From positions 1-37,814 of the forward strand of contig WRNB01000008.1 of the NCBI GenBank assembly GCA_009776805.1: a stretch of DNA of 37,814 bases. The letters are read 5' to 3'. Every line of letters starts with the position of its first letter. The first letter of the stretch is position 1. The notes under the pieces are model-generated. The model searched no databases. It had not been told where the DNA came from and saw only the letters and a list, made by a program, of their open reading frames with translations. Of this stretch, positions 1 to 37,814 are shown piece by piece. This stretch comes from Candidatus Bathycorpusculum grumuli. GTDB lineage: Archaea > Thermoproteota > Bathyarchaeia > Bathyarchaeales > Bathycorpusculaceae. Both the position numbers and the translations under genes were made by a program.

Positions 1-411
1 ATGTGTAGTTGTGTGTGGATTGTGGTGAAAATTATTTTTGCAGACGTGAATCATTATTGTGTAGTAGTCAAAAATTTGACTCGCTACGACTGAATAGTAA
101 CAACGTTTTTATGGTAAAGTCAAATATTTAGAGAATTGTGTTTTTTATGTTGATGGTTGGGATGTTTTTGTTAAGGTGTTGCTGAACGATTGTTATGTTG
201 TTGGTAAGTTGCATATTGTTGTTATTGTGCAGGATAATAGTAATACTTGTTATCGTTTAGGGTGGTTTACGTGTAGTGTAAATGTGGTTTTTAAATGTGG
301 TCTGGTGGTTGATACTTTTTTAAAGCTGTGGAAAAATTTGACAACGTCTGAGGTCTTCGCTCAAATTCAAACAATAGTACTATCTTCCTATAAGTGAAAA
401 CTCTCAAATTA

Positions 412-2130
412 TTAATAGTTAACGGTCGTTCTTTGGTGTACTTTGTTCAAAATAAATTCTAAAAACGTTTTTGTATCTACTTTATCTTTAGAATATAAAT
501 AAAAAAACTTATACGGGTAAGTGTTATCATTGTCTTGAGGTTCTTCTTTTCGTAATTCGTCATAAGTGTTGTAGTCCTTTTCTCCCTTAAATCTAATAAA
601 TGTCTTCTCTTTATCGATTTTTGCGTAAAATTTATTTTCTGCAGGCAAAAGAACAAAATCAAAAGTTTTATGGTGCTTATTGCAAAACTCTTGCAATTCG
701 TCTAACAATTGTAGTATTTCAAAACCATCTTTAATACTAGGATGGGTCAATTTTATTTCATCATATAGCTTTTTATCAATTTTTTTAGTGCTACATAAAT
801 CTTCCATTTCATTCAAATGATTAATCAGCGGTTTAAAAGCCCCTGCAACTTCACAAGCAACACCTTTTTGGGTACCCAGCCAGTGGACATACTCTTCATG
901 TGACTTCCAGATAGGGCTTTTTCTTTCATCCCTTTTGAAATATTCAGCCACATCCGGTTCATTGTTAATAACATTTTTCATATAAAATAATAGATCGATG
1001 TCAGATAACAATGAAAAAGATAACCCTTTTCCAATATCATTTTGCTTGACCGACAACGATTTTGAAGAGAAAACTTTATTTAAAAATGCATCAAATGTAA
1101 TATGGGCATATTTTTTTTGGGTAAATATGGATTTAAGTGAAATACCAACTGCTTTTCTTAAAAGATAATATTCATATAATACAACCGGGTGATTCACAAT
1201 CCACTTCGCCTGTGCATTTTTTGCGTTAATAACGTTATCAATAACACTTAATGCTACTTTTTTAAATGCAGGGCGATAAACGTTATCCTTGTCAACTATC
1301 ACACTAAGACTACTTAACAATCTATCAATGTCCAAAACAACATTTTCATAACCCGACATAAGTGTATCTCTTGTTATGTAGTCCAACTTATCTACATCAA
1401 CTGTTGAGGAGTTTAAAAGACGAATAAGACAATTCTTTATACCTCTTTCAGTTTTTATGTCGGTTGAGTCGGCTGGGTTTACAGTATAGCAACAACCTAA
1501 AATTGAACGTATTATTAAATCCAAGTTAGGTTTTTTATAGGTACTGTCTGTAAAGATTTTAGTAAAAGTCTCAAAATTTTTAATGATAACTATTGAACTC
1601 ATTTTTTCATGTTGCGAAGGCCCTTTCTTATCTTTATCAGCTTTCGTAATAATTGTTGTATAGTCTTGTTTAAATGCGTTTTTTACTGATAGGTCTAACG
1701 AATTGTTAGCCAGAATTTGCGCAATTAATTCTTCATCTAAGGTAAGCTCACCGAGACTCTTTGCTTGATAATTAAATAAATCTTCACAAGTATGAGAAAA
1801 AGGGGCATGCCCTATATCGTGTAAAAGACAAGCTAACAAAAAAGACTCTTTATTTTGCTGTAATATTAACTGATACTTTTTTAAGGAAGTTTGTGTCACA
1901 TCATTACTCAAACAATTGTTATAAAATCCTTCAAAAGCTTTTTGACCTAGATGATATGTACCAATAGAATGAATAAATCGGTCATGTCTTGCTGACGGAT
2001 ATAAAACTCTAAAGCTTGTTTGCTCAACCCATTTCAGACGTTGGAATTCTGCTGTGTCAATAATTTTCCAATAAGGCTCTTCGACTTGGATATATCCATG
2101 TACAGCGTCCTTGATGATTTTTGTTTTCAT
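412..2130 (-). CDS. HD-domain phosphohydrolase (SAMHD1/YwfO-like, COG1078-type)
   Basis: 572 aa; motifs DTAEFQRLKWVEQTSFRVLYPSARHDRFIHSIGTYHLG and LLACLLHDIGHAPFSHT, typical of dNTPase-like HD hydrolases. Confidence 0.88.
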   Translation of the reverse strand: MKTKIIKDAVHGYIQVEEPYWKIIDTAEFQRLKWVEQTSFRVLYPSARHDRFIHSIGTYHLGQKAFEGFYNNCLSNDVTQTSLKKYQLILQQNKESFLLACLLHDIGHAPFSHTCEDLFNYQAKSLGELTLDEELIAQILANNSLDLSVKNAFKQDYTTIITKADKDKKGPSQHEKMSSIVIIKNFETFTKIFTDSTYKKPNLDLIIRSILGCCYTVNPADSTDIKTERGIKNCLIRLLNSSTVDVDKLDYITRDTLMSGYENVVLDIDRLLSSLSVIVDKDNVYRPAFKKVALSVIDNVINAKNAQAKWIVNHPVVLYEYYLLRKAVGISLKSIFTQKKYAHITFDAFLNKVFSSKSLSVKQNDIGKGLSFSLLSDIDLLFYMKNVINNEPDVAEYFKRDERKSPIWKSHEEYVHWLGTQKGVACEVAGAFKPLINHLNEMEDLCSTKKIDKKLYDEIKLTHPSIKDGFEILQLLDELQEFCNKHHKTFDFVLLPAENKFYAKIDKEKTFIRFKGEKDYNTYDELRKEEPQDNDNTYPYKFFYLYSKDKVDTKTFLEFILNKVHQRTTVNY

Positions 2131-2135
2131 TTTTA

Positions 2136-2507
2136 CTAATTGCCTAGAATTTTGTTTGAGGCTGTAATAAATTCGGTTATTACATTATTAGGCAAGCCCG
2201 ACCTAAAATGTCTTTCTAACATTTGAATAACTGGAATTTTATCCGGTTTAACCTTAATTTCTAATCCATTATCATTTGATGACGCGACAAAAAAAGGATA
2301 GTCATCTTCAAATTCAAAAATCCCGTTAATCGAAAACTTTGTAAAGTAGTCTAATTGTTTAAGTGAGTCGTTAACTTGGTTATTAAAAATAATCAAATCA
2401 TTAAATGAAACTTCATGTCGATTACGTATAACTGCCTCTATTATAAAATTTCCAATAACAACATCACAACTTATTGACTTACACATATTTCCATCATTCA
2501 TCTCCAA
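2136..2507 (-). CDS. Small uncharacterised protein, partner of the HD hydrolase
   Basis: 123 aa; ends 5 nt upstream of the HD gene on the same strand; weak full-length resemblance to the 128-aa ORF at 17910..18296, which sits in the same place next to a second HD gene. Confidence 0.75.
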   Translation of the reverse strand: MEMNDGNMCKSISCDVVIGNFIIEAVIRNRHEVSFNDLIIFNNQVNDSLKQLDYFTKFSINGIFEFEDDYPFFVASSNDNGLEIKVKPDKIPVIQMLERHFRSGLPNNVITEFITASNKILGN

Positions 2508-2677
2508 ACAAACGAAGCTTATTATTACGGAAGACTATAGGAAAACAATAAAATCATATATAACTCTTTTTTGTAGAGGAAGTAATTTTCTCTAATTAAT
2601 TCTTCAATTTTGCTCTGTGGCACCTGTTTTTAGTGTGTTCGGTTTTCGGTTAATGTCTGCTCTTGGATGATATGTTG

Positions 2678-2794
2678 TTATTCACTGTTTTTTATGGCTT
2701 TTTCTAGTTCTTCACGGGTTATAAGCTCTCGTCTGTGCAATTCTTTCAGCACGCTTATCTTGAAACGCAGTCCTATACTCGCATTATTAGACAT
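2678..2794 (-). CDS. Small ORF of 38 aa, SHOCT-like (MSNNASIGLRFKISVLKELHRRELITREELEKAIKNSE)
   Basis: Read by hand from the reverse complement; ATG to TAA; C-terminal half fits the short SHOCT-like pattern LKEL..R.LIT.EEFE; may be a remnant. Confidence 0.4.
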   Translation of the reverse strand: MSNNASIGLRFKISVLKELHRRELITREELEKAIKNSE

Positions 2795-2917
2795 ATTAAC
2801 CGCTAAGTTTGGTCGGTTGTAACTATAAAAACATTAATCCGTAGTTCCCGCTATTTTTTCTAGGTACAAATACTAAACTTGTCTACGCAAAATAGAAACA
2901 GGACACTCAATACCAAC

Positions 2918-3146
2918 AATTCAGACTGCGCAAAAACACTAAAAATAATATTGTTAAACACTGTGTGTAGGCAGCCTCCGAAAACCCCATTTCAAAAAAC
3001 TAAGCAACATAGTTACACGGTTTTCGGCACGTGATTTTTGGGAAAATATAGGTTTTCGGAGGTCGCCTGTAGTGTCTGTGTATTCACGTGTGGTTGTATA
3101 TTGTGTGTTTGAGGGAAAATACTTGGGTTGTTGCGCAGTCTGAATT
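2918..3146. repeat. Outer perfect 16-bp inverted repeat AATTCAGACTGCGCAA (2918..2933) / TTGCGCAGTCTGAATT (3131..3146) flanking a MITE-like element
   Basis: Direct sequence match. Confidence 0.8.
2968..3073 (+). mobile_element. MITE-like element copy 1 (about 100 bp, TIR AGGCAGCCTCCGAAAACC...GGTTTTCGGAGGTCGCCT)
   Basis: Terminal inverted repeats; near-identical inverted copy at 18501..18604; TA dinucleotides at the ends. Confidence 0.8.
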
Positions 3147-3528
3147 TGTAACAATCATTAACCCTCTTAATCACCTCTTGAGTAATAACTGTAAAGTGTG
3201 TATAGCTTATTTTTGGCATTAAATCGTACAATACTAGCTCACGTTTAGTGCCGTCTGAAGATGTGATTATTTGATTATGTATATCACCCGTTTCAGTGTT
3301 TTTATATTTACAGTCCGTTATCATTAAAGGACCTGTTCCATTATTGATAATTTTTATGGATATTTTGTTTATATAATTAGTAAAAACAATTTCACAAAGT
3401 GGTCTAACACTGTTTTTATTGTGCACCATTTGTATCCTACTAAAAATCCATGTATAAATCACTGAAATAAAGGCTATAATTGTTGTTGCAATCAGTGTTA
3501 AATTTGCTGTTGTCACCATCCGCAACAT
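3013..3528 (-). CDS. Hypothetical membrane-anchored protein whose C-terminus reads into the MITE-like element
   Basis: 171 aa with an N-terminal TM segment (TLIATTIIAFISVIYTWIFS); the last ~40 aa lie in repeat and flanking sequence, so the natural C-terminus is probably replaced. Confidence 0.55.
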   Translation of the reverse strand: MLRMVTTANLTLIATTIIAFISVIYTWIFSRIQMVHNKNSVRPLCEIVFTNYINKISIKIINNGTGPLMITDCKYKNTETGDIHNQIITSSDGTKRELVLYDLMPKISYTHFTVITQEVIKRVNDCYKFRLRNNPSIFPQTHNIQPHVNTQTLQATSENLYFPKNHVPKTV

Positions 3529-4465: not shown

Positions 4466-4469
4466 ATAA

Positions 4470-5093: not shown

Positions 5094-5209
5094 AAAGTAT
5101 TGTCAATGTCGTAAATACCTTTGTGTTTTTTGTTTGCATGTTTTGTTGTAGGCTATCTCTTTTGAGGGTTGTTAGACTTGTTAAGAATTATTGTGTGGTG
5201 TGTGTTTTT

Positions 5210-5435: not shown

Positions 5436-5458
5436 TTGAACCTCAACGAATTGAACAC

Positions 5459-9823: not shown

Positions 9824-9824
9824 T

Positions 9825-11492: not shown

Positions 11493-12430
11493 TTATTGAA
11501 CAAAAGATAATTTGGTGTTGTCTTATTTAGGTTTTTCACCCATTTTTTATTACTACAACAAACAGTGTTTGAATGTAGTGCTTATGTGAGTGAATATGTG
11601 TTTTTTATGGTTATGGCTTAAGGGGGTGTTATTTTTTGTTGTGTTTTTTGTGTGTAAGGTGTGTTGTAGTGGATATAATTGGAAGTAGTGTTTGTTGTAG
11701 TGTTAAATTGTTAAGTGTTAATTTTGTTGTAGGTGTGTTGTGTTTTGTTTTTTGTTTTGTAAAGTTTGAGTTATATGTTAGAGTGTGAGTTGTAAGTTTG
11801 TTGATGTATTGGTATGGGTGGTTGTGTAAATTGTGTGTGGTAAATTAAATGGTGTTTATAGGTTTTTAAATTTTGTTTGGCGGAAAAAGAGTGTGTGTAA
11901 TTTGTTTTTTTAAATTTGTAATGAAAACAAACTGTAAATTAGCTAGAAAGTGTTATGGTGGTTGTTGTAATAAATGTTTTAGTTACTTTTTTTTAAATGT
12001 TTGTTAAATTTCTGTAATAATTTTATTATATGTAGCATCTTAAAGTTTTCTATATATGGTTTGGAATGTTACTGTGTTGTGTTTATGGGTGTGGGTTTTT
12101 GAGGTTGTCTGTAGAGGTGTAATTTAATAATGTGCAAAACTAATTTTGGGCTGTTATGTATTGTTGGAATAATTTTTTGGAGGCTGTGTTTTATTGTGAT
12201 TGTGTCATAAAAAGTAAGTAACAAATTAGATATATTGGTATATGTCTGCTTTATAGTAGTTGATATAATATTTTTTTAATGTTTTATATGAAAATGGTGT
12301 GTTTGTGGCGTGTTTTTTGTATCCAATTTTTTTTGTTTCATAAGAGTTTACCGCCGACAAGTCGGTGCTGGAAGAATTGCAAAAACAGAAAAAATGTTTG
12401 TATGGAGTTTGTGTTGTTTCTTTTTTTGTT

Positions 12431-13531
12431 TTATTGTGTTATTGAATGGTACCAACTGATGATGTATTCAGGTAATATTAATCCGCGTTGTGCGATACGT
12501 TCAGCTAGTTTTACTGGAAGTGGACTTAGGACAAAGGCGGCGCGTGTATAGAAACGACGTGGAGTGTTTAGTCTTGCTTCTTCGTCTAAGATAATTTTTA
12601 AGTCTGCTTTTTTTGCTAATGCAGAGTTTTTGTTACTTGTAATTGCAAACACTGTGCCTGCACATTTTTTAAGTGCCTCAGCCCAAATGATGACTGGCTG
12701 GGTTTCACCACTGTAAGAAATGAGCAATTCCAAGTCACCTGATCTTGGGTGAGGCGTGTTTACACCACGGGTAATGTACACGTTGTCTCCAAAAAAGCTT
12801 TTAATGTGAAATAAACGCACACCTGTCATTTTAGCTATTTCGTTACCTGTTCCTTTTCCGCCCAAAAATATGTTAGTACGTTTTTCCATAACATCTACAA
12901 GTTGTTTGTAGGTTTCGCTGTTAACGTTTGAATCTATCATCTCGCCTATTTTTTGAAATTCTTCATTACATAAACTGTAAACATCATCAACTTCTAGATT
13001 ACGAAAAATAGCTTCTATTATACTGTTTAACAGTTGAAGAGTTCCTAATTCAAATATGTCTCCCATAATGCCTGTTTCACTGTATTCAGCAGAAGGTTTA
13101 GATTTTCCTCGACCTTTTAAAATAACTGTTGTGCCATGCTTGTTTGTAATGTCTGCCAAAGGCGATTCGTAAACTGAAGTAAGCAACCCCATAGAAAACT
13201 TGGTTGATTTAGTTTCCTCAATATATCTGCTAAGATCTTGAGCCATAACTAACGGATCATCACTGTAACCACTGCCAGAATTCATTAAAAGCAACGTTTT
13301 TTTGTATCTCCTCTCAAGATCAAAAGCAGCATCATGCATATTACGACCTGGAAACCCTGGATCATCAGGCGTCAAAATAACCTTGTTTCTCCACCCAACC
13401 TGACTAAGTGCAATTTGACTCATAGCCGCATTTAAAGAGTATAATGAACGCCCAGAACCTCCACATATAACACAATCAGCAGATTTTATATCTTCAAAAA
13501 GCCTCGCAAGTTCTTTACGCTTTATATTCAT
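12431..13531 (-). CDS. Double SIS-domain sugar isomerase-like protein
   Basis: 366 aa; CGGSGRS...LLLMNSGSGYSDDP in the N half and GGKGTGNEIAKMTGVR...LLISYSGETQPVI in the C half. Confidence 0.8.
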   Translation of the reverse strand: MNIKRKELARLFEDIKSADCVICGGSGRSLYSLNAAMSQIALSQVGWRNKVILTPDDPGFPGRNMHDAAFDLERRYKKTLLLMNSGSGYSDDPLVMAQDLSRYIEETKSTKFSMGLLTSVYESPLADITNKHGTTVILKGRGKSKPSAEYSETGIMGDIFELGTLQLLNSIIEAIFRNLEVDDVYSLCNEEFQKIGEMIDSNVNSETYKQLVDVMEKRTNIFLGGKGTGNEIAKMTGVRLFHIKSFFGDNVYITRGVNTPHPRSGDLELLISYSGETQPVIIWAEALKKCAGTVFAITSNKNSALAKKADLKIILDEEARLNTPRRFYTRAAFVLSPLPVKLAERIAQRGLILPEYIISWYHSITQ

Positions 13532-13929
13532 AACATTTTCTTGAATTTTGTTAACGAATCCAATACTACTTACCTTGCTTTTGATGACAACGACAACCTC
13601 AATTTACACGTTATGCATGACCTACTTATATTATTCTTCCTTCACCAAACAAATTTCATGAAACAATTTTCTATTGAAGATGATGAAAAACATTTTTCAA
13701 GGAATAATTCACCATTCTATAAGCCGATGCCTGGTAGAATTACAAAAGCAGTCAAGTTTTCATGAAAGAGTACACCATCAGCTACACCGTTGATAAAAGA
13801 ACCATAAATCAGTAAATGTGTTCATGGAAACTGTCATAATTAATCAAACTTTTAACGGTTATACTTTATCGCAGAGTATTACTTATATTATATAATCTTG
13901 ACTATACCACTACACAAAGGTACATCCTG

Positions 13930-15488: not shown

Positions 15489-16134
15489 TTAAACCTTACT
15501 TGATATGTTATGTTAAGTTTTGCTTCAACATTAATGTTCTAATAACGTTTAGAAATACAAGTCCATAACCGAGTTTTAGGATAAAAAACGCCTAATTTTC
15601 TTCCACACCAAACCCCACAAACCCAAACATGCAAACTAAACATCATGCGTTTGTGCAACAAAACTATTCTACAATCTGCTACTGCACTAAACAATGAAAA
15701 ATACATGTACAATGACTATCATATAACACGCGAAACGACAATTAAATAAATGCGTACACACACTCTTACAAATAGTGGCTGAAGCAAGACAAACAATATT
15801 CAAAATGTGCACGATTGTTATGGACTCATGGCTTTTTTAAAGCTCAAAAAGATAGCCTGATGTTATTGGTTGTTAGGTAGGTTTTGTTTGGTGGAAGGTT
15901 TTGTTTTGGTCGATTGTTCCCCAGTGTTTGTTTGTGGTTTTTTTGTTTGTTTTTGGGGTGGTGTTGTTTTGTGTTTTTGGTGTTGTGTTTTGGTTTTGTT
16001 TTGGGTGTTTTTGTTATTGTGTGTGGTGTTGTTATTTTTTGTGTATTTGGTGAGTTGGTGGTTTGTGTTTTTAATGTTTTTTGTAGTTTTTCGTTAAATT
16101 TGTCAAAAAATAATAACATCTAAGGTTTACTTGT

Positions 16135-17913
16135 TTATTTTTGTTGAACACAGGTTCTGAGTGGGTTTAACCTGTTGAAATATGTAGTGGCAGCATTTTT
16201 CAAAAATTTGACTAATTCATCTACCGTTACGTTTTGACCTTTTTCGGGTTTAATTTTCCGTTTGTCGTAAAATATATAAAAATACGTATTCACGTGACTC
16301 TTTTTATCTTTTTCAGCCGTTAGTATTGAAATGCTTCCATTTAATTCAACGGGGTCTGGTTTGTTTTTAAACTGTACAAGTATATTGCCGATATCTTCTT
16401 TTAAAAATCCGCTCATAAACATGTTTGCCTTTATAACAATGACTTCGGGAGAGTCAATCCATGTTTTTAAAAAATTTATAAATTGTTCAACAAATTCTAT
16501 CTGTGCTTCCTTCACTTGTATCTCCATTATAATATCTGGAGTTGTTTTTAGCTGTACCTTTGCCTCCTCAAGTTTTGCGTTTAATTTTTTTACTGTATCT
16601 CCGTTTATGATGGCAGTATCTGAGTTTGGTTGACAATCATATGCAGACTGGTTTTTATCAACTAAACTTTTTAACAGTGTAAATAGAACTAAAAATATAT
16701 CGCTCATGTTTTGTCTTATACCCGTTCCTTGTGCATCAAAAAGTGTAGTATACTCTGCCTCAGATTTCCAAAACGATTTCATGCGTTTATTTCGCGCAAA
16801 TAATTGTTTAATTAGTGCATCACTACATTTATTCTTAATGTAGCATATTATATCATCATCACAAAGTAATGCTATGTTCTGTTCCATAATTTCTTGCTTT
16901 CCGTTTATAATAACTGGCACGTTAAATTTTTGCCCTTCTTCCGTCAAAGAGTCATACGAAAATAATTTTTTTCCACTTTTTTCCAAGAAATACTTAGAAA
17001 CTTCTTCTATTGCTTGTTGCAATATAAAATTTTCATAAACACATACAGGGTGACTGTGTATCCATTTTCTTTCAAAATCATGCGCAACAATAACACTCTC
17101 TATAGCACTTATAGCATTTTGTTTAAACCCAATCTTTAATTCGTTTCCATGAAAACATATTACCATATTACTTAGCAATCTTCTATAATCAATTGCGACA
17201 GCATCATATCCTGCTGCGTAAGCATCCCTTATAAGATAATCTAGCTTGTCTACATCTATCGTAGAAGAATTTACAACACTTATTAGTGCATTTAACAGTT
17301 GTTTTCCCGTATCACTTGGGGTCACTTCATAAGGATACCCTGTTATGCAACGCGCAAAAAACTCTTGATTTTTATCTATCACTGCTGGAAACTTTTTAAG
17401 TGCTAGTAGTGCGCTCATAATTTCGTGTGGAGCCGCTTTGCTGCTGATTTTTTTCTTTTCATTTTGAACTGTTAACTCCTCATCGATACTACTTTTTCTG
17501 ACCTCTTGTACCAATAAAACGTCAAGAGGATCTGGCTTCTGAACATTTGTATTAATAGAAAGATAAAAATTTTCTCCAGTGTGTGAAAATGGCGCGTGAC
17601 CTATATCATGAAACAAACACGCTAACTGCACTGTTCTTTTGATATCACCAAGTCCACCGTTAGGAAACAATTGTTGAAATAGCTTATTATTATCTAATGA
17701 TGTAAATATGGCTTCGGTTGCTATCTTCCCAAGGTGGTATACCCCTAAAGAATGAGAAAATCTGTCATGTGTAGAGGTGTGATACAGTGATGAAAAACTG
17801 GTTTGCCTTATTCTTCTGAGGCGTTGAAATGCAGCTGTATCCACTACATTTTCAAAAATATTTTCATCGATCTCAATATATTCGTCATATACTGGATCGC
17901 GAATAATTTTCAT
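16135..17913 (-). CDS. HD-domain phosphohydrolase, paralogous to 412..2130
   Basis: 592 aa; DTAAFQRLRRIRQTSFSSLYHTSTHDRFSHSLGVYHLG, VQLACLFHDIGHAPFSHTGENF. Confidence 0.88.
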   Translation of the reverse strand: MKIIRDPVYDEYIEIDENIFENVVDTAAFQRLRRIRQTSFSSLYHTSTHDRFSHSLGVYHLGKIATEAIFTSLDNNKLFQQLFPNGGLGDIKRTVQLACLFHDIGHAPFSHTGENFYLSINTNVQKPDPLDVLLVQEVRKSSIDEELTVQNEKKKISSKAAPHEIMSALLALKKFPAVIDKNQEFFARCITGYPYEVTPSDTGKQLLNALISVVNSSTIDVDKLDYLIRDAYAAGYDAVAIDYRRLLSNMVICFHGNELKIGFKQNAISAIESVIVAHDFERKWIHSHPVCVYENFILQQAIEEVSKYFLEKSGKKLFSYDSLTEEGQKFNVPVIINGKQEIMEQNIALLCDDDIICYIKNKCSDALIKQLFARNKRMKSFWKSEAEYTTLFDAQGTGIRQNMSDIFLVLFTLLKSLVDKNQSAYDCQPNSDTAIINGDTVKKLNAKLEEAKVQLKTTPDIIMEIQVKEAQIEFVEQFINFLKTWIDSPEVIVIKANMFMSGFLKEDIGNILVQFKNKPDPVELNGSISILTAEKDKKSHVNTYFYIFYDKRKIKPEKGQNVTVDELVKFLKNAATTYFNRLNPLRTCVQQK

Positions 17914-18296: not shown

Positions 18297-18500
18297 TCCT
18301 AACCTGAATTTATGTTATTATTTGGGTATATTAAACTTTGGTAAAAATAATGTAACTAGCTACAGTGATTGGTCAAAGTTGTTTAACTATCTTTTGTGCC
18401 CAAAAGAGCAATGTCATCAGGTTATCTTTTTGAGTTTTAAAAAAATGTGTGTCCATAACTTGTGTGCAAGTGTTGTGGTGTAGTTTTTTTTGTGTCAGTA

Positions 18501-18604
18501 TAGACGACCTCCGAAAACCTATATTTTCCCAAAAATCACATGCCAAAAACAGTATAACTATGTTACTTAGTTTTCTGAAATGGGGTTTTCGGAGGCTGCC
18601 TATA
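18501..18604 (-). mobile_element. MITE-like element copy 2 (inverted relative to copy 1)
   Basis: TAGACGACCTCCGAAAACCTATATTTTCCCAAAAATCACATGCC...GAAATGGGGTTTTCGGAGGCTGCCTATA; reverse complement differs from copy 1 at only about 7 positions. Confidence 0.85.
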
Positions 18605-19564
18605 GTAAATTTTTTGGTTGTAAAAATTTTGTAGTTTTATTGTTTTTGTAGTTGTGTAATAGTTAGTTTATTGTGGAAAAGTGATTTGTAAAATGTGTGC
18701 GTTGGTTATGGGTGTATGGTTTTTTTTGTTAGGTATTAGTTTTGGTGTGTTTGTTGGGTGGGGTGTAAGTTTTGGAGGTGGTGGTGTTTGAAAGGTTTGT
18801 GTGTTTTGGGGTGTTTGTAGTTTTGTTGTGTTTGGTTGTGTGTTTTGTGTTTGTGTATTTTTGTTCAAGAGTTTGGTGGTATGGTGGGTTTGTTTTTGTT
18901 TCTAAGAAAAACGTGTACAATATAATGTTGTTTAGGTGGATATTTTGGTTAAGGTTGTTTTTGTTGTTTGTTAGTTTTTTATGTGTGTTTTGTTTGTTTG
19001 TGGTTTTTTTGTTGGTAGGTGTTTGTTTGGTGGTTTTGTGTGTTACTGGTGTGGTGTTTGTTGGTGGTTTGTTGTGTTTTTTGTTGTTTTGGTGTATAAT
19101 TTTTATGTGTTGTGGGTGTGTTTGGTATAGTTTTGTTTTAATGTTGGTTTTTGTAATTGTTTTGAGTTGTTGGAGTAGTGTTTTTTATGTAGTGTTTGTG
19201 TTGTTTGGTTATGTTGTTTTGTTTTATTTTTCACTGGTATACTTGGTAGCAGGTAACGTAGTGGTTATTATAAACCAAAAAGTTTTTAGCTTGAAATATT
19301 GCTTTGTTGAGTAGACTTGATATGGTCGATGCTGGAAAAGTAAATAAATTCGATATTGCACAGAAAACAATGCATTATTTGCCTTGTGGTTGTATATATC
19401 AGGATACTGATTGGATGTTGTTGCGAATAAATGAGTGTAAATATCACCATTATAAAAGAACAGTAAAAAGGCCCTATAGGCCAAAAGCTGAATGTGTTAG
19501 ACCATAAACAACAATAGCTCAAAAAATTGTTACGTATTTAACAGTTTACCCGGTGTGTGGGTGT

Positions 19565-20599: not shown

Positions 20600-20940
20600 T
20601 TTAATTTTGTGTATCTCAGACAAGCAAAAACAAGTTACAAAACAATTGAACGCGCCTACGGTAACATAGAGGTTAGGCAGATACTTGAAGGCGTTTTTGA
20701 GTTAACCAATGAACCTGTTGCGGATTTGGAGCATGAGTTTGGCTCCGATGGTACAGGTCTTACTACATCTTGTAAACAAAATTATGAGAATGGTCGGCAA
20801 AAAATCAAACTCACAAAGGTTACGAAAAAATTGTGGCAATGGTTGGTCTTAAGTATAAGTTTATTTCATCTTTTAAATACGCTGCTAAGTCTACTGTTCA
20901 TGAGTCACTTTATTTTGAGTCTTTATTAGCTGAATTTGTT
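20600..20940 (+). pseudogene. Transposase remnant (DDE type), frameshifted
   Basis: SYKTIERAYGNIEVRQILEGVFELTNEPVADLEHEFGSDGTGLTTSCKQNYEN, then in a second frame KGYEKIVAMVGLKYKFISSFKYAAKSTVHESLYFESLLAE. Confidence 0.7.
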
Positions 20941-21390
20941 TGTTGGTATGGTTGGGTGGGTTTGGTGGTGGGTGTTTGTGGTTTTTTGTCGTGGGGTATT
21001 TGTGGTTTGGTGGTGGGTGTGGGTGTGGTTTTGTGTTTTTGTCTTAGGAAATTTTTTTGGTTGTGTTTGAAGGGTAGTGTTGTTTGGTGGGTGGTGTTTG
21101 AAGAGTTATTTTTGGATTTTTGGAAGTGGTTTTTTGAGTATATGGGTGTTTTAATGTGGAGGGTTGTTTTTTTGCTTTTTAGGTGATGTTTTTTTGTTGT
21201 TGTGTTAAGTGTTTGTTGTGTGTGGGTAGTGGGAGGTGTTTATTTGGGTTTGTGATTTAAATGTCAAATGTTTGTGTTATTTGGATTATTTTGAGGGTAT
21301 AAATGTGTGAGAATTTTGGTGCAAATTATATTGTCCCAAAGTCAGTTTGTCCGTAACTTATATAGCCTGCTTTGGTTATACCTGACGATT

Positions 21391-22485
21391 ATGTCTGACC
21401 AAGGAGCAGTGCATAGTGGGAAGCAGCAAAGTGTGTTTAAGCGGTTTCTAAAAGTTTCTTTGCAATTAATTGTTATGGTTGTAATGTTTGCTGTATTGCT
21501 TTGGTATGTGGGCATAAATGAATTGTATGTAGTGTTGCTTACAATTAAAATTGAATATTTGATGTTGGCTTTTTTGATGTATTTTGGGATAAATGTTTTA
21601 TTTGCGTTACGATTGCAGAGGATTTTGAAAAAAGATAATATTAAGACTTCTTTTAAAAAAACGTTATTTGCGCAATATGCAGGTATGTTAACAAGTGATG
21701 TTACTCCAGGTCGCTCAGGGTATATATTAACTCCAGTATATCTAAGAGATCAAAATGTGCCCACACCCAAATCTCTCTCCGCTATACTAGGTATACAAAC
21801 AATAGAGTTTCTCATAAAAGTGACAGGTGGTATTGGTGCAGTAATTTACTTAATTAAATATGTTCCAGCAACGACATGGAGTGTAATATTTCCACAAACA
21901 ATTGTAGGTGTAAATATAGGTGTAATGGTTGCCGTTTTTGGCATAATTTTAATGCTCGTAGGCGCAATTTTACTGGCATTATGCACATGGTCAAAAAAAG
22001 CTCTAGTGATATTTACAAAAATCGCAAATATCCGCTTCATAAGACGCTTCACAGGTGGTCTAATAAGTAAACTTGAAGAATTCAAAGACAGTGCTCACAA
22101 CACCAAAAAAGCCGTTCCCGAAATACTAATCTTAACATTAACCTGTTGGATACTGAAAGGCTTTGAATGGTGGTTCCTGGGCATAGCAATAGGCATCAAT
22201 ATACCTTGGATAGCCTTCTTCCTAATACACCCGCTAGTTACTGCTCTTGCATTTGTACCTCTAACTCCTGCTGGAATAGGTGTACAAGAATTCGGAATCG
22301 TAGGTATACTAGGACTACTAGGAATACCAGTTGCTACAGCAGGCGCATTTGCAATCATCGCACGGGGACTGCTAATTATCGAAGACCTAATTGGACTACC
22401 ACATATCGTGAAATCAACAAGTTTACTCTTCACACATAAAAAATCCATACAAACAACCGAAAACTCAACCACATTATCATCATAA
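21391..22485 (+). CDS. Lysylphosphatidylglycerol synthase-TM/UPF0104-like flippase family membrane protein
   Basis: Multi-TM; QYAGMLTSDVTPGRSGYILTPVYLRDQNVP, PLTPAGIGVQEFGIVGILGLLG; ATG at 21391 preferred to the GTG at 21307. Confidence 0.88.
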   Translation: MSDQGAVHSGKQQSVFKRFLKVSLQLIVMVVMFAVLLWYVGINELYVVLLTIKIEYLMLAFLMYFGINVLFALRLQRILKKDNIKTSFKKTLFAQYAGMLTSDVTPGRSGYILTPVYLRDQNVPTPKSLSAILGIQTIEFLIKVTGGIGAVIYLIKYVPATTWSVIFPQTIVGVNIGVMVAVFGIILMLVGAILLALCTWSKKALVIFTKIANIRFIRRFTGGLISKLEEFKDSAHNTKKAVPEILILTLTCWILKGFEWWFLGIAIGINIPWIAFFLIHPLVTALAFVPLTPAGIGVQEFGIVGILGLLGIPVATAGAFAIIARGLLIIEDLIGLPHIVKSTSLLFTHKKSIQTTENSTTLSS

Positions 22486-22710: not shown

Positions 22711-23729
22711 AATTTGAAGTTAAAAATATATGGTTCCCTTCATAAAGTATTCCCTTTTACTGTGGCATAATAACAATCTAAAAAACAAAAAAAGGTGTAT
22801 CACGAAAAAATATGTGCTTAATGACTTTAGAATAAAATTGTGATCTTGTATCAAAATTTTTTTGTATTTGAACTCTAAAATGTTTTTAATAATGCATTTT
22901 TTAATTTTGACTTATATTTTTAGTTAGTTTTTAGATAGTTTGTGTGGTTTTTAAATGTTTGTGGTGGGTTGTTTGGGTGTTTGGGGTGTTAAATACTGTT
23001 GGTGAGTTTTTGGGGTGGTGTTGGGGTTTGTGGTTTGTTTTGTTTGTAATTTTGTTAATTGCATTATGTTTGTTAGTTTAGTTGTGAAGAGTAATGTTTT
23101 TTTGATTAGTAATTTGGTGAGGGGGTTGTGAAATGTGTAAAGTATGGTGGGTGTGTTGGAGTGGGTGGGTTTGAGGATTTAGTAGGTGTTTGTTTTTTTG
23201 TTTTTTTTGTTGGTGTGGTTGTGTGGTTTTTGTGTTTTTATCTGTGTTTGGTTTGATTATTTGACAGTGGTTTTGTTTAGTTTTAGCGTGCAAAAATGAA
23301 AAAGGTTAATATTTTTTTGGTTTGGTGTTGTATTGCGAATTTTTACGGTGTGTTGAAAGAATATGTTAGGTTCAAATGGTAAGTTAATGTAGTGATGGGT
23401 GGTAAAGATGTTGTGTGAAAAGTTGTGGCTGATTTTTTGTTTTAGATGGTGGTGGTTGTGGTGTGTATTAATGGTTGGGTGAAATGTTTTGTGTTTTTGG
23501 TGAAGAGTTTAGAATTTGTTTTAAATATGTGGGTGCTGTTTATTTTAGTGTGTTAGTGGTTGATTTTTGGATTGGGTAATTTGTTAGTTTAAAAACGTTC
23601 AATAATTAATTGTAATGTTCATTAAAAACATAAAAAATAATAAGAATTAATGTTTGTACCGTATAAATTATGTGGGAAAACAGTAATGTTTATTGTGTTT
23701 GACCTTGTAAATGCGACAATCTATTTAGT

Positions 23730-29745: not shown

Positions 29746-31035
29746 TTATTCGTCAAATTTACTTTTTAATTGCACATATCCTTGTTGTTTTAATTGCAAT
29801 ATAGAGCATTCTGGTACGTCACTATCAACCACAAGATTTGCTCCAACCCAACTATCTGTACCAATTTTTACACCAGGCATAAATGAAACATTTATCCCTG
29901 TTTTCACATTATCAGCAAAAACTACGCCAAGCTTACGTTTACCAGTATCTACCTTTTTATCTTTCACAGTCATTTTAATACTGTCACAATCAAATCGCAA
30001 ATTTGCTGTTATAGTACCAGCACCAAAATTACAATTTTCACCAATTATACTATCACCTACATATGAAAGATGCCCTACGTGAGTATTATCCATTATGAGA
30101 CTATTTTTGATTTCAACAGCATTTCCTACACGAGTTTTTTTGCCAAGACAAGTTCCTGAACGTATAAAACAGTTAGGACCAACATCCGCTCCTTCATCAA
30201 TAAAAACTGGACCCTCAATATATACACCTGAACGAATTCTCGCTGTTTTTGCTACGTGAACTCGTCCAAAAAGATGCACACCTTGTTCTACAACACCCAA
30301 AACTTGAAGATCCATATGATTAAGCACCCAAATATTTGCATCAAGCAAATCCCACGGTCTACCCACATCAAACCAAGCCTTTTTATCAAGCTCTAAAACC
30401 TTCACAGTTTTACCCTCTGAAGCTAACATAGTTAAAGCATCTGTTAATTCCCACTCACCACGCACAGACTTTTTAACCTGCCCAAGCTTTTCAAAAACAG
30501 TTTTTGAAAACACATAAACCCCAGCATTTACCAAATTTGATGGAACATCCCCAGACTGAGGTTTTTCTATAATACTTTTGAACTCTTTATCATCTGTCAA
30601 CTCTATTATACCATAATTTTTAGGCTCATCAACCGCTACAGCTGCTATAACCGCTTGAGGTTTAAATGTTTCATACATATCAACTGCTTGCTTTACAGTA
30701 TTTTGTGCAAACAACAAATCCCCATAAATTAACACAAACTCATCTTCCACAAACGATTCAGCCACCATAGTTGCATTACCTGTACCCCCAAGCATTTTTT
30801 GTTCAACATAACTGATTTTTAAACCCTGACTTGACCCATCACCAAAATAATCTTTAATCTTCTCACCCATATAATGGGTAACAATTACAACATCCGTAAT
30901 ACCCGCAGTTTTTACTGCATCAAGACAAAACTGTAAAATAGGTTTCCCAGCTATTTTTATTAAGTGTTTAGGCCGTGTAGATGTTAAAGGCTGAAGTCTT
31001 TGACCTTCTCCTGCAGCTAACAAAACAGCTTTCAT
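29746..31035 (-). CDS. glmU: Bifunctional sugar-1-phosphate nucleotidylyltransferase/acetyltransferase (GlmU-like)
   Basis: MKAVLLAAGEGQRLQPLTSTRPKHLIKIAGKPIL plus C-terminal left-handed beta-helix hexapeptides; overlaps the upstream gene by 4 nt. Confidence 0.9.
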   Translation of the reverse strand: MKAVLLAAGEGQRLQPLTSTRPKHLIKIAGKPILQFCLDAVKTAGITDVVIVTHYMGEKIKDYFGDGSSQGLKISYVEQKMLGGTGNATMVAESFVEDEFVLIYGDLLFAQNTVKQAVDMYETFKPQAVIAAVAVDEPKNYGIIELTDDKEFKSIIEKPQSGDVPSNLVNAGVYVFSKTVFEKLGQVKKSVRGEWELTDALTMLASEGKTVKVLELDKKAWFDVGRPWDLLDANIWVLNHMDLQVLGVVEQGVHLFGRVHVAKTARIRSGVYIEGPVFIDEGADVGPNCFIRSGTCLGKKTRVGNAVEIKNSLIMDNTHVGHLSYVGDSIIGENCNFGAGTITANLRFDCDSIKMTVKDKKVDTGKRKLGVVFADNVKTGINVSFMPGVKIGTDSWVGANLVVDSDVPECSILQLKQQGYVQLKSKFDE

Positions 31036-32405
31036 TTTAATGAACCTTCAATTTGTTTAGTTACTAAAACAGTTGCTTTATGCATTAATTCTTTTGCAGC
31101 ATTACCTGTTTTACCTTCGGCAGTTATACGAATAAATGGTTCTGTACCAGACGCACGAATCAAAAACCACCCGTCTTCAAAAGCTAATCGTATACCATCG
31201 ATAGTTGAAAAATCTGTATACTCACAAAATTCACTCTTTATTATTCCTACAATAAGTGTGACTACATCTGTTTTTATTTCATTAGGGCATTTAATATTTT
31301 CTCGCAACGTTACATACTTTGGTACTTCCCCTACAAATTCATCAACTGTTTTTCCCTCAGCTTCCAATGCCTCCAAAAAAAGTGCTGCCGACAAAAGTCC
31401 ATCTGGGCAATAATGTTGCAGTGGATGTACCCAAGCTCCACATGGTTCCCCGCCAAAAACAGCTCCTTCACATTTTATTGCCTCAGAAATGTAAACATCA
31501 CCTACTCTTGTGCGTATAACTCTGCCCTCAAAAAATCCAGCCATTGTCTCAATACACATAGATGCTTCAACATTTGTCACAATTACACCTCCACCTGCCT
31601 GTTTTAAAGCGTAAGCACTATATGCTGCTAATGAGCGGTCAAAATCAACAAATCTGCCATTTTCATCCACAAATGCTACCCTATCAGCGTCACCATCAAA
31701 GGCAATGCCAATATCTGCACCAAGTGCACAAACAGTTCTATACAGGTTTTTAAGTGATTCAGCTGTCGGTTCACTTGGTCTATCTGGAAAATGTCCATCG
31801 GGTTGAGCGTTTAATGCTGTTACTTTACAACCAAGTGATTTGAGTAATTGTGGTGCGAATTGATATGCTGCACCGCAACCTGGATCAATAACTATGTGCC
31901 ATTTTTTATGTAATACCGCGGCTTTTTTAACCATTTCAAGGTACGATGGGTATGCGTCGTAGTGGCTAGTTTTGCCTAAACAGTTCCAATCTGCTAAGGC
32001 GTATTGTTTTTCTGTAATAATTTTTTCTACAATTGTTTGGTCTATGTCTGCGTAAGATAGGGTTTGGGAGTTAAAAATTTTTATGCCGTTGTATTGAGGT
32101 GGGTTATGTGAAGCTGTTATCATAAAGCCTACATCAGCTCCTAAAATACGGGTTGTGTATGCTAAGACAGGTGTGGGGACTATGTTTAATATTTTAGTGT
32201 TTACTCCGCATGAAAGTAGGCTTGAGATTAATGCGTTTTGTATCATGTTGCCTGAAACTCTTGTGTCACATGCTATTGTGGCTTGTTTAGCTTTAGCGTA
32301 TGTTGCAACGGCTGAACCGACGTTGCATGCTAAAGTGGGTGTTAGTTCGTTGTTAATTAGACCGCGTACACCTGAACTTCCAAACAATTTGCCCATTGTA
32401 TCCAA
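31032..32405 (-). CDS. glmM: Phosphoglucosamine mutase/phosphomannomutase
   Basis: MITASHNPPQYNGIKIFN, IAFDGDADRVAFVDENG, RASGTEPFIRITAEG. Confidence 0.92.
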   Translation of the reverse strand: MDTMGKLFGSSGVRGLINNELTPTLACNVGSAVATYAKAKQATIACDTRVSGNMIQNALISSLLSCGVNTKILNIVPTPVLAYTTRILGADVGFMITASHNPPQYNGIKIFNSQTLSYADIDQTIVEKIITEKQYALADWNCLGKTSHYDAYPSYLEMVKKAAVLHKKWHIVIDPGCGAAYQFAPQLLKSLGCKVTALNAQPDGHFPDRPSEPTAESLKNLYRTVCALGADIGIAFDGDADRVAFVDENGRFVDFDRSLAAYSAYALKQAGGGVIVTNVEASMCIETMAGFFEGRVIRTRVGDVYISEAIKCEGAVFGGEPCGAWVHPLQHYCPDGLLSAALFLEALEAEGKTVDEFVGEVPKYVTLRENIKCPNEIKTDVVTLIVGIIKSEFCEYTDFSTIDGIRLAFEDGWFLIRASGTEPFIRITAEGKTGNAAKELMHKATVLVTKQIEGSLK

Positions 32406-33488: not shown

Positions 33489-33497
33489 ATGTAAATA

Positions 33498-33575
33498 TTA
33501 CAAGTTTCCAGCATATAAACATGTATTTATTGTAAATTAGACAAGTTTTTTATAAAAAATTTATTATACTTGTAA
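33498..33575. promoter_or_regulatory. Candidate Lrp/AsnC operator repeats in the divergent promoter
   Basis: TTACAAG at 33498..33504, ACAAGT at 33541..33546 and the inverted CTTGTAA at 33569..33575 between the regulator and the asnA-like gene. Confidence 0.45.
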
Positions 33576-33600
33576 CAACATTACATGTTTAACAGATAAA

Positions 33601-34581
33601 GTGAATGATATGATTCTGCAAGATAACCAAACAATTAAACCACCAAAATCACTAGACCAACTCACAATACAAGAAATTGAAAAAAAAGCTATCATAGGCA
33701 GAATACTAACCTACACTTTAGAAAGTTTAACATCAACATATGTAAAACAAGACTTCCAATGGCTCCTACCAGTCGTCCTAAGTCAGAGCACAGATCCACT
33801 TTGGCCAGACCCAAACTCATCAATCGAAAAAAGAATCGAATTAGACATTTACGGAAAACCTGTGCGCACAATGACAAGCATGATTGTCCACAAAATAATC
33901 GGAGCCTCAACAGTATACCCAAAACTATTCACACTTGCACCAAATATTCGCATTGAAAAAGCAGAACGCGGCAAAACTGGAAAACACATTTATGAATTCA
34001 CCCAACTAGACTTTGAAGCTCAAGGAGCAACCTCAAAAGATGTTTTCACACTAGTTGAAACAGCACTCTGCACTTTAATCAAAGATCTAAAACAAGATCT
34101 AAAACAAGAACTACAACAAATCAACCGCTTTGATGCTCTACCCACTTTAAACACACCGTTTAAAATTTTTGACAGTAAAGACCTAGAAAATAAATACGGT
34201 ACAACATGGGAAGACACTATCACAAAAGAAATCACACAACCTATTTGGATTACAAACATTCCCCGCGAATTCTACGATTTTGAAGATTTCGCAACAGGCA
34301 AATGGGACAATTACGATTTATTCATGCCACAATTCGGAGAAGTCCTTTCAGGATCCAAACGTGAATACGAATACAACAAAATCATCCATAAAATGGAACA
34401 ACATGAAGTACGAAAAGAAAACTATTCACTACTCATCCAAATGGCCAAAGAAAACCGTATAAAACCAACAGCAGGTGCAGGCATAGGCATCGAACGTATA
34501 GTTGGATATATCACAGGCGTAAAACACATCGCTGAATGCCAACCCTACCCAAGAGTGCCTGGAATAGTACATCAATTATAA
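33601..34581 (+). CDS. Archaeal asparagine synthetase A-like protein (class II aaRS-like, AspRS-related)
   Basis: 326 aa; RIELDIYGKPVRTM..., EFTQLDFEAQG, AGAGIGIERIVGYITGVKHIAECQPYPR. Confidence 0.87.
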   Translation: MNDMILQDNQTIKPPKSLDQLTIQEIEKKAIIGRILTYTLESLTSTYVKQDFQWLLPVVLSQSTDPLWPDPNSSIEKRIELDIYGKPVRTMTSMIVHKIIGASTVYPKLFTLAPNIRIEKAERGKTGKHIYEFTQLDFEAQGATSKDVFTLVETALCTLIKDLKQDLKQELQQINRFDALPTLNTPFKIFDSKDLENKYGTTWEDTITKEITQPIWITNIPREFYDFEDFATGKWDNYDLFMPQFGEVLSGSKREYEYNKIIHKMEQHEVRKENYSLLIQMAKENRIKPTAGAGIGIERIVGYITGVKHIAECQPYPRVPGIVHQL

Positions 34582-34732
34582 ATTCAACATATCTTGATCA
34601 TTAAAGAAATACGTTATACAAGGATGCATAACGGACAAAACCAGATAAATACACTATAGCCCAGAGTATAGCATCAACGTAACCCTTTAATGCAATAAAA
34701 AATAACATAAAATACAAGTCTGAGGTAAAAAT

Positions 34733-36613
34733 ATGAATCCATATCTAGAAGTACTTCAACCTAAATTATCCACTAAAGATTTTGAAAAATTATCAGCAAT
34801 AGATAATCCAAATGTCCATGAATTCATAGCAAAAACTAGTGACATGTGTCACCCAGAAAAAATTTTCATCTGCAGCGATGCAGCCGAAGATATTGCATAT
34901 GTGAGAAAACAAGCAGTAACATATGGCGAAGAACAAGCCACACTTACACTTGAAGGACACACAGTACATTTTGATGGTGAAAAAGACCAAGGACGAGACC
35001 GACAAAACACAAAATATCTTGTGCCTAAAGGCGTCTTTTTAAGCAAAGCACTCAACCAAATGGACCGACAAGAGGGTTTAACAGAAGTTCGAAAAAAACT
35101 AAGTGGCTTAATGTCAGGCAGAACAATGATTGTTCGTTTCATATCATTAGGACCACGCGATTCAGTTTTCACCATTTTAGGTGTACAATGCACTGACTCA
35201 TGGTATGTTGCCCACTCAGAAGACTTACTCTACAGAGTTGGTTATGACCAATTTGTAAAAGCCGGACCAAAAAGCGACTTTCTCAAAGTTATACATTCAG
35301 CAGGCAAATTAACAGAAGAAATGGTAAGTGCCGAACCTGACAAAAAACATATTTACATTGACCACATGGACAACACCATTTATAGTGTAAACACTCAATA
35401 TGCAGGCAATAGTGTAGGCTTTAAAAAATTAGCATTCCGTCTTGCAATACGCAAAGCAAGTAGTGAAGGTTGGTTAGCAGAACACATGCTACTAATGGGT
35501 GTTCACGGACCAAACAAACGTAAAACCTATTTTGCTGGAGCTTTCCCAAGTGCATGCGGAAAAACTTCAACAGCAATGTTGCCTGGTGAAACTATATTAG
35601 GTGATGACATTGCATACATACGCGAAATAGATAGCGTTGCTAGGGCAGTTAACGTTGAAAGTGGCATTTTTGGTATAATACAGGATGTAAACGAAAAAGA
35701 TGACTCTTTAATTTGGAAAGTTCTAACAACCCCTGGTGAAGTTGTATTTTCTAATATTTTAGTCAAAGATGGTAAACCATATTGGTTAGGTATGGGTAAA
35801 GAATTACCTAAAGAAGGTTTAAACTATACAGGTCAATGGTTTGAAGGTAAAAAAGATGAAGCCGGTGTTGAAATATCTGCAGCGCATAAAAACGCGCGTT
35901 ATGCAGTAGCTTTACCTGCATTAGAAAATGTTGATTCTGAGCTTAATAATCCAAATGGTGTAGAGTTAGGTGGTATAATGTATGGTGGACGCGATGCGAA
36001 AGCCTATGTGCCTGTTCAACAAAGTTATAGTTGGGAGCATGGTATTGTTGCGTATGGTGCATCGTTGGAAACGGAAACAACATTTGCAACAATAGGTAAG
36101 GAAGGTATTCCGGAAATTAATATGATGAGTATTCAGGATTTTATTTCAATACCTCTTGGTAAGAATGTTAGTAATAATTTGGAATTTGGGCGTAAACTCA
36201 AAAAGCAGCCAATAGTTTTTGGTGTAAACTATTTTCTGCGTGGGGTTGTAGATGGTAAGTATCTTAATAGTTCACGTGATAAGCATGTTTGGGTTAAGTG
36301 GATGGAGCGAAGGGTTCATAATGAAGTTGATGCGATTAAAACTCCAACAGGGTTAATTCCTAGGTATGAGGATTTAAAGTTGCTTTTTAAAGAGGTTTTA
36401 AATAAGGATTATGCAAAAGAAGACTATATTAAGCAATTTACGATTCGTATACCGGAGAACTTGTCTAAGATTGAGCGTGTTTCTAAATTTTATCAAGAAA
36501 ATGTTACTGATATACCGTTGGAAATGTTTGGGCAGCTTTACATGCAGCGTGATCGATTATTATCGGCGCAACAAAAGTATGGTGACTATATCTCGCCTGA
36601 AAAATTTGAATAA
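34733..36613 (+). CDS. pckG: Phosphoenolpyruvate carboxykinase (GTP)
   Basis: 626 aa; FPSACGKTSTAMLPG, ILGDDIAYIRE, GMYGGRDAKAYVPVQQSYSWEHG-like motifs. Confidence 0.95.
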   Translation: MNPYLEVLQPKLSTKDFEKLSAIDNPNVHEFIAKTSDMCHPEKIFICSDAAEDIAYVRKQAVTYGEEQATLTLEGHTVHFDGEKDQGRDRQNTKYLVPKGVFLSKALNQMDRQEGLTEVRKKLSGLMSGRTMIVRFISLGPRDSVFTILGVQCTDSWYVAHSEDLLYRVGYDQFVKAGPKSDFLKVIHSAGKLTEEMVSAEPDKKHIYIDHMDNTIYSVNTQYAGNSVGFKKLAFRLAIRKASSEGWLAEHMLLMGVHGPNKRKTYFAGAFPSACGKTSTAMLPGETILGDDIAYIREIDSVARAVNVESGIFGIIQDVNEKDDSLIWKVLTTPGEVVFSNILVKDGKPYWLGMGKELPKEGLNYTGQWFEGKKDEAGVEISAAHKNARYAVALPALENVDSELNNPNGVELGGIMYGGRDAKAYVPVQQSYSWEHGIVAYGASLETETTFATIGKEGIPEINMMSIQDFISIPLGKNVSNNLEFGRKLKKQPIVFGVNYFLRGVVDGKYLNSSRDKHVWVKWMERRVHNEVDAIKTPTGLIPRYEDLKLLFKEVLNKDYAKEDYIKQFTIRIPENLSKIERVSKFYQENVTDIPLEMFGQLYMQRDRLLSAQQKYGDYISPEKFE

Positions 36614-36758
36614 ATTGTATAGGGAAATTTTATTTTTCCCATAAATATTTTTTTATGTTAGGTATATGTTTGTTGGGGGTTGTGGGTTTGATTTTTGTTT
36701 ATTTTAGTTGTGTATTTGGTGTTTGTAAAGAAAATGCTTAATTTTAACAGTTGATATT

Positions 36759-37382
36759 GTGTGTGTGATTGTTATGCATGTTGAAATGTTTCCGACGGGT
36801 AGGCTTCAAACTAATTGTTATGTTGTAAGTTGTGTTGAGACAAAGGAGGCTGTGATTATTGATCCTGGGATGGATTTTGAAGTTGAAGCTCAACCGGTTT
36901 TTAAATATGTTGATGAAGAAAAGCTTAAAATAAAATTTATTGTTAATACGCATGGTCATCAGGATCATATAAATAGTGATATTTTGATGCAAAAAAAGTA
37001 TTCTGTGCCTATTTGTATTCATGAGCAGGATGCTTATTTTATAGAATGTTTGGGGCCTCGTAGTGTTGTTGATGTGTTGCTTAAAGATGGTGGTAGTGTT
37101 GTGTTTGGGAATGTGTGTTTAAAAGTTATGCATGCGCCTGGGCATTCGAGGGGTGGTATTTGTCTTGTTGGTGATGGGGTTATGTTTTCAGGGGATACGT
37201 TGTTTGCAGAGTGTATAGGTCGTACAGATTTTGTTGAAAGTTCGCCAAAGGATATGGTTGTGACTTTGCGGAAAATAGTGGGTTTGCCGGATGGGTTGCT
37301 TGTTTATCCGGGGCATGATGAAGTTACTGTGTTGGGTAAGGAAAAGTTGGTGAATCCGTTTTTGGTGAATTTGAAATTGTAA
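36759..37382 (+). CDS. Metallo-beta-lactamase-fold hydrolase (glyoxalase II-like)
   Basis: 207 aa; FIVNTHGHQDHINSD, HAPGHSRGGICLVGDGVMFSGDTLF, YPGHDEVT. Confidence 0.9.
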   Translation: MCVIVMHVEMFPTGRLQTNCYVVSCVETKEAVIIDPGMDFEVEAQPVFKYVDEEKLKIKFIVNTHGHQDHINSDILMQKKYSVPICIHEQDAYFIECLGPRSVVDVLLKDGGSVVFGNVCLKVMHAPGHSRGGICLVGDGVMFSGDTLFAECIGRTDFVESSPKDMVVTLRKIVGLPDGLLVYPGHDEVTVLGKEKLVNPFLVNLKL

Positions 37383-37402
37383 GTGTTTGTTGTTGTGGTG
37401 TG

Positions 37403-37660
37403 TTAGTGTTGTGTTTGTTCGTGTTGTTTGTTTTTTGTTTTGTATGATATGAATGCAATGGTCATGAGTAGTATGCCGATTCCTGTTGTTGTTGTTGATA
37501 TTGTTTGGTATGGTAGTGTCATCATTATTGAATCGCCTGTCTCAATATTTGCTGTATCAGATGTTGGAATTTGATTATCATGCAAAGAATACAATACAGT
37601 ACTCAACACAAAAAGTATCAATGTAACAACTATCAAACATATTTCCTTTTTAAATTTCAA
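37403..37660 (-). CDS. Small membrane protein, two TM segments
   Basis: 85 aa; EICLIVVTLILFVLSTVLYSL and GIGILLMTIAFISY. Confidence 0.55.
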   Translation of the reverse strand: MKFKKEICLIVVTLILFVLSTVLYSLHDNQIPTSDTANIETGDSIMMTLPYQTISTTTTGIGILLMTIAFISYKTKNKQHEQTQH

Positions 37661-37711
37661 CTTTCTCCCTCAAAATATACAACACTTTTTTTTAACACCC
37701 CACCATATATA

Positions 37712-37732
37712 ACAGGCAACCTCCGAAAACCT
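37712..37732 (+). repeat. Solo copy of the MITE terminal repeat (ACAGGCAACCTCCGAAAACCT)
   Basis: Matches the TIR of the copies at 2968 and 18501; the downstream interior does not clearly match within the window. Confidence 0.55.
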
Positions 37733-37814
37733 CTTAACTAGCATGTACATTATAGGTAACAAAGACAAAGCAGGGAAACTACATGGGCCAACAACACTTA
37801 TTTGGAACACAAAC

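Follow-up and report, generated by a model that had tools for sequence, protein, structure and literature searches.

Kilobase-scale alternation of strand-asymmetric substitution in a clade of Candidatus Bathycorpusculum

The heavy strand of vertebrate mitochondrial DNA gathers C->T and A->G changes on one strand and becomes rich in G+T, most clearly at fourfold degenerate sites; in the published model, deamination of cytosine and adenine in single-stranded DNA (ssDNA) turns the exposed strand T- and G-rich (PMC4182315). Strand-coherent mutations over kilobase-scale tracts also occur in strand-coordinated clusters, or kataegis, arising from damaged ssDNA (PMC6786661), and a G+T excess on one strand is a property of both the replichore GC or keto skew of bacteria and some archaea and the asymmetry of transcribed DNA. 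Here we describe domains rich in G+T (keto) or in A+C (amino) that alternate along one strand of a 37,814-nt stretch of archaeal DNA, referred to as the window, which is the entire contig 8 of a metagenome-assembled genome (MAG; 2.29 Mb, 173 contigs, 97.6% complete). The genomes of the clade to which it belongs are a mosaic of domains of about 1 kb in which one strand gains C->T, A->G and, less often, A->T, independently of gene direction.

Each of the described systems differs from this pattern. Vertebrate mitochondrial DNA has one polarity over the whole molecule, following its replication origins, whereas the archaeal polarity changes every ~1 kb along a cellular chromosome, and A->T is added to the spectrum. 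Kataegis comprises single bursts that mostly hit C within a deaminase motif; the archaeal changes affect both A and C, are free of motif, and seemingly keep one polarity at a locus over many substitutions. Replichore skew is correlated over hundreds of kb vs ~1 kb here, where it is unlinked to coding or to replication arms, and in contrast to transcription-associated asymmetry the domains are not aligned with annotated gene direction. A short search of the open-access literature found no description of this pattern, nor of such a process at this scale in a microbe.

The nearest named relatives of the genome (G000) are MAGs of Candidatus Bathycorpusculum, a Bathyarchaeales genus that includes termite-gut lineages (PMC10684969), and from its placement in the tree we infer a termite origin. 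Genome-wide results for G000 are from a sample of 1.43 of 2.29 Mb, with genes called by a home-made hexamer model, and those for relatives from samples of 18-240 kb each. G001, G008 and G010 are the other genomes of the clade with the phenotype (termite Candidatus Bathycorpusculum), and the remaining G numbers are relatives used for comparison.

Alternating domains in the window and the genome

Hand counts of G+T in the initial annotation (58/60 at 19021-19080, 54/60 at 22981-23040 and 15/60 at 15601-15660) were exact. The mean keto skew, the excess of G+T over A+C, is positive in all ten of its G+T blocks (+0.26 to +0.80) and negative in all seven of its A+C blocks, where, taken over all sites, it is far smaller in size (-0.08 to -0.24). 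The A+C blocks stand out at fourfold sites, where, for instance, 33751-34000 has a skew of -0.73 and 30251-30500 one of -0.64. Sign reversals, put at about ten or more in 38 kb by the initial annotation, numbered 12 beyond +/-0.25 in 300-bp windows. A codon-matched null, in which synonymous codons were resampled and intergenic DNA was replaced by Markov sequence (100 runs), gave a mean of 0.49 reversals and a maximum of 3, and the standard deviation (SD) of keto skew in 300-bp windows was 0.217 vs 0.081 under this null. First-order Markov sequence produced 0 reversals in 5 runs. These nulls rule out chance, codon usage and Markov composition as causes. Low-complexity arrays were also rejected, the repeats in the keto blocks being weak composition matches, as was assembly chimerism: switches fall within intact reading frames, such as a flippase-like gene (21307-22485) and a phosphoenolpyruvate (PEP) carboxykinase gene (34733-36613), and a similar profile with similar switches is seen in the independently assembled MAGs G008 and G010.

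The skew mosaic is genome-wide (1.43 Mb) and is present at both fourfold and intergenic sites, with 200-bp skews elsewhere in the genome reaching extremes of +0.94 and -0.92. A hidden Markov model (HMM) over 1.1 Mb assigned 15% of the sequence to strong (+/-0.7) states. The domain scale is ~1 kb, skew autocorrelation falling to 0.2 by 1 kb and to ~0.05 by 2 kb, so that neither one sign per replichore nor a long correlation length is seen. Over 1.1 Mb, switches up and switches down do not differ in sharpness (z for skewness of the increments within about +/-1.5 at all lags), and the saw-tooth of unequal sharpness associated with origins and termini is not present. Ordinary leading/lagging asymmetry is thus insufficient, as the initial annotation had held. 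The same symmetry makes very improbable a process centred on breaks or origins, in which resection or forks from fixed points would generate saw-tooth skew, although a few loci, such as 33.5-37.5 kb, do look saw-toothed.

The sign of the skew does not follow gene direction in G000. Gene-oriented fourfold skew has a mean of only +0.07 (SD 0.34), opposite-strand neighbouring genes are positively correlated in genome orientation (r 0.13), and intergenic skew is independent of the orientation of flanking genes. These intergenic and gene-orientation results argue against coding strand as the explanation. Together with the switches inside genes, they also make unlikely a transcription-coupled asymmetry, in which the non-template strand of sense or antisense transcripts would be exposed in R-loops and the domains would mirror local, much of it antisense, transcription. 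Such an origin would fit the resemblance between domain size and transcript size. For 18 tRNA genes, three of them in the window, the stretch lying 200-600 bp upstream is keto-rich on the strand opposite the tRNA (skew of -0.17+/-0.07 and -0.24+/-0.07 relative to the tRNA), which would fit as well.

G/C and T/A skews jointly carry the signal (r 0.84, intergenic). In strong blocks A/(A+G) at neutral sites moves from 0.68 to 0.27 and C/(C+T) from 0.31 to 0.06, with GC content nearly unchanged. Protein composition tracks skew across 1050 genes of the genome, the correlation with the content of F, L, V, G, W and C being 0.57; genes with fourfold skew above +0.5 encode on average 11.7% Val and 4.3% Thr, and those below -0.4 encode 4.5% Val and 9.0% Thr. 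DNA made only of G+T and devoid of stop codons also gives long spurious hydrophobic open reading frames (F, L, V, W, G, C) in keto blocks; the one at 18772-19314, in a keto block of the window, had no NCBIfam match.

Substitution spectrum of repeat copies

The genome is rich in dispersed repeat families, many about 100-250 bp long and similar to miniature inverted-repeat transposable elements (MITEs), several with terminal inverted repeats. The smaller samples of the relatives held far fewer repeat pairs, and their repeats were too few for spectra. For G000, 260 copies from 37 families were aligned to the family consensus, which is a proxy for the ancestor; subfamilies make the copies partly non-independent. 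Single copies mutate strand-coherently (dispersion chi2 873, 169 df). When coherent copies were folded, C->T reached 33% per C and A->G 13.5% per A; copies with more net A->G also had more net C->T (correlation 0.71). A->T and T->A in the coherent copies were 5.1% and 0.9%, respectively (171 vs 28 counts), an asymmetry that is unbiased because transversions were not used to choose copies; A->C/T->G and C->A/G->T were roughly balanced. Neighbour context is weak, with transition rates varying only about twofold, and its largest effect in these copies was on A->T after a 5' G (0.11 vs 0.03-0.04, about threefold).

Longer alignments show the same polarity. The long repeat pair C34/C51 has 117 keto vs 16 opposite transitions; its first ~900 bp differ almost wholly one way and its last ~350 bp the other way, with an abrupt switch of sign. 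Inserted repeats tend to match the sign of their local flanks (22 vs 7, p 0.008). Within the window, a family 0 copy on the + strand (18602-18726) differs from its consensus by 10 A->G and 15 C->T with 0 G->A/T->C, and by 3 A->T with 0 T->A. It adjoins a young MITE-like copy of family 2 (18496-18602, + strand; 96% to consensus, terminal inverted repeats) that is itself not rewritten, and a second family 2 copy lies at 2968-3074 on the - strand (95% to consensus). C->T is therefore coupled to A->G on the same strand in repeat copies, in the repeat pair and in the window copy, as in mitochondrial DNA. The polarised copies and pairs support the proposal of the initial annotation that short domains undergo strand-specific A->G and C->T change; the A->T component was absent from its prediction. 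Repeat-induced point mutation does not describe these changes, which extend to single-copy genes and intergenic DNA and include strand-coherent A->G.

No enzyme motif of the kind seen in kataegis marks the mutated bases in the repeat spectra. This bears on enzymatic hypermutation, in which one or more cytidine and adenosine DNA deaminases would target single strands as part of a system for defence or diversity. Comparable rates of A->G and C->T are easier for enzymes to produce than for spontaneous chemistry, but the absence of a strong motif preference is unlike the known AID/APOBEC enzymes, A->T is not by itself a deaminase product, and a crude motif scan of the 1.43-Mb sample yielded only a ComEB-like dCMP deaminase. 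We consider this explanation highly unlikely.

Misinsertion on the nascent strand would produce every part of the spectrum, A->T among them, by a single step, and fits the low context dependence. A low-fidelity polymerase in gap-filling or repair patches would leave G or T through T.dG, G.dT and T.dT mispairs, making the synthesised strand keto-rich, and a Y-family polymerase is present while MutS is absent. Both features are nevertheless common to nearly all genus members that lack the phenotype. G000, G001 and G010 encode NucS/EndoMS, an enzyme that acts on G/T, T/T and G/G mismatches, the exonuclease motifs of PolB1 look intact, and a polarity fixed per locus requires an extra assumption; misinsertion is accordingly possible but rather doubtful. 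Several single-gene causes were rejected: loss of NucS, loss of MutS as the specific cause (absent genus-wide except in G006), an extra Y-family polymerase (one copy is found) and broken PolB1 proofreading.

Clade distribution, repair genes and mechanism

The orientation-corrected fourfold variance is 0.10-0.22 in G000, G001, G008 and G010 vs 0.02-0.06 in the other sampled genus members, which show mainly gene-oriented codon bias. The four genomes form one fully supported clade in a midpoint-rooted tree of the flippase, and the phenotype marks this one clade, the termite Candidatus Bathycorpusculum. In controls such as G007, where opposite-strand neighbours have r -0.64, the fourfold skew is plain gene-oriented codon bias, contrary to what the phenotype clade shows.

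Gene-mean polarity across species is ambiguous, with r of 0.25-0.48 within the clade yet 0.30 vs G007. Conservation is better for the contrast within genes (r 0.21-0.54 vs G000 and 0.89 between G008 and G010, n=10, compared with 0.28 vs controls), at fourfold sites that are not fully saturated, and shared ancestry can account for some of this. The initial annotation had proposed conservation of switch points as a check. A SIS-domain gene on the - strand (12431-13531) runs from +0.67 to -0.46 in gene orientation; the gradient is similar in G008 and G010 (+1.00 to -0.65/-0.72) but not in G001 or B. soli. The flippase-like (LPG_synthase_TM) gene, on the + strand, has successive fourfold skews of +0.41, -0.09, -0.35 and -0.41, and its 5' end is less negative than the remainder in most clade orthologues. 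This partial conservation of within-gene contrast suggests that polarity and position are not purely random. At least some domains have probably long held one polarity, because a single massive burst would be expected to destroy genes, yet genes inside strong blocks, surrounded by neutral sequence nearly free of A and C, are intact.

We tentatively favour, as the best though unproven mechanism, deamination of locally exposed single strands, of the kind proposed for the mitochondrial heavy strand, combined with weakened repair, since the clade is depleted in repair of exactly these lesions. The keto strand would be repeatedly exposed as ssDNA at domain positions, in R-loops, gaps or displaced strands. 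By deamination of the exposed bases, C would become U and then T, and A would become hypoxanthine and then G; abasic sites left after hypoxanthine excision may give rise to some A->T. The marks would persist through weakened repair, endonuclease V (EndoV) having been lost in the clade and uracil-DNA glycosylase (UDG) not found in G000. A G+T-rich displaced strand might also favour its own re-exposure, which is a guess.

EndoV is absent from G000, G001, G002, G004, G008 and G010, and present in G003, G005, G006, G007, G009 and G011 and in all eight other families of the order searched; it is thus missing from 4/4 phenotype genomes and found in 6/6 compared controls. In G012, in-frame TGA codons appear to disrupt the EndoV gene (C26:7790-8342), a recent loss distinct from that of the termite clade. 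UDG is missing within the genus from G000 only (the family search was positive in 18/21 genomes), and the G010 UDG protein as query had no match in G000 in a search run without its own positive-control genome; the absence may be an assembly gap at this level of completeness. A group of HhH-GPD glycosylases of ~220 aa, best-scoring and present in most relatives, seems to be missing in G000, G002, G008 and G010 (grouped by score and length only).

Several observations weigh against the deamination mechanism. Spontaneous deamination of adenine is far slower than that of cytosine, and the A and C rates here differ only 2-3 fold, which is awkward for spontaneous chemistry. An EndoQ-like protein, which could deal with U and hypoxanthine, also occurs in the phenotype genomes (full-length, below the curated cut-off), as it does in the genus members searched other than G002, which is incomplete. 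Variance is not elevated in G004 and G012 (about 20 kb each), which form a pair apart and in which EndoV is missing or broken, and given these thin data EndoV loss is not established as a sufficient cause. The C->T side is as strong in the UDG-positive G001, G008 and G010 as in G000, and GC content vs skew did not separate them from it; UDG-positive members of the clade had been predicted to show the A->G side only, and in this composition test the prediction failed. EndoV loss and the phenotype coincide on one branch and so count as a single event.

Other window features and significance

The HMM divides the contig (1-37814) into many strong keto (+0.7) segments and one strong amino segment. 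The most extreme keto block, intergenic on the + strand (18610-19231), reaches a skew of +0.83 and is almost without A and C, apart from a short break at 18902-18925. Further strong keto blocks on the + strand lie at 11597-11841 and 22897-23284 (both intergenic), at 15858-16095 with a sharp left edge, and at 20935-21672, ending within the flippase-like gene. The strong amino block (13155-13535) is keto on the - strand, as are the amino domains at 29870-31205 (level -0.3) and 33574-35583 (fourfold skew to -0.73). The GTP-type PEP carboxykinase gene (+ strand) passes from a fourfold skew of -0.45 to +0.68 along one reading frame. It is followed by a strong + strand keto block (36648-37443) containing an intact metallo-beta-lactamase-fold gene (36759-37382), which has a fourfold skew of 0.84-0.89 and still matches its full protein family.

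Genes in the window are ordinary archaeal ones, including CdvA-like, PEP carboxykinase, GlmU-like and phosphoglucomutase genes, together with three tRNAs and one thiamine pyrophosphate (TPP) riboswitch. Two HD-domain proteins (412-2130 and 16135-17913) are weakly similar to dGTP triphosphohydrolases. Among other loci, L021:33-2090 is a CRISPR-like array at a contig end with roughly 27 repeats of about 37 bp each (CTTTCAATTCCCGTTTGTTGGGATGTTATTTTGAACC), and L019:5020-6392 is a repetitive coding region, keto-rich on the - strand, that probably encodes a beta-helix-type surface protein.

Strand asymmetry is usually read per replichore, per gene or over a whole organelle genome; here it flips every kilobase and is partly conserved between species, and it is strong enough to accompany changed protein composition. 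The chromosome could conceivably be split into ~1-kb domains that have opposite mutational polarities, stay fixed in position and maintain themselves, with an inherited local strand identity that would shape both DNA and protein composition; we regard this proposal as speculative and on present evidence unlikely. For annotation, the long stop-free reading frames that keto-rich DNA yields in such genomes are a warning. These genomes offer a natural test bed for where ssDNA occurs in an archaeal chromosome and for the roles of EndoV and UDG in vivo.

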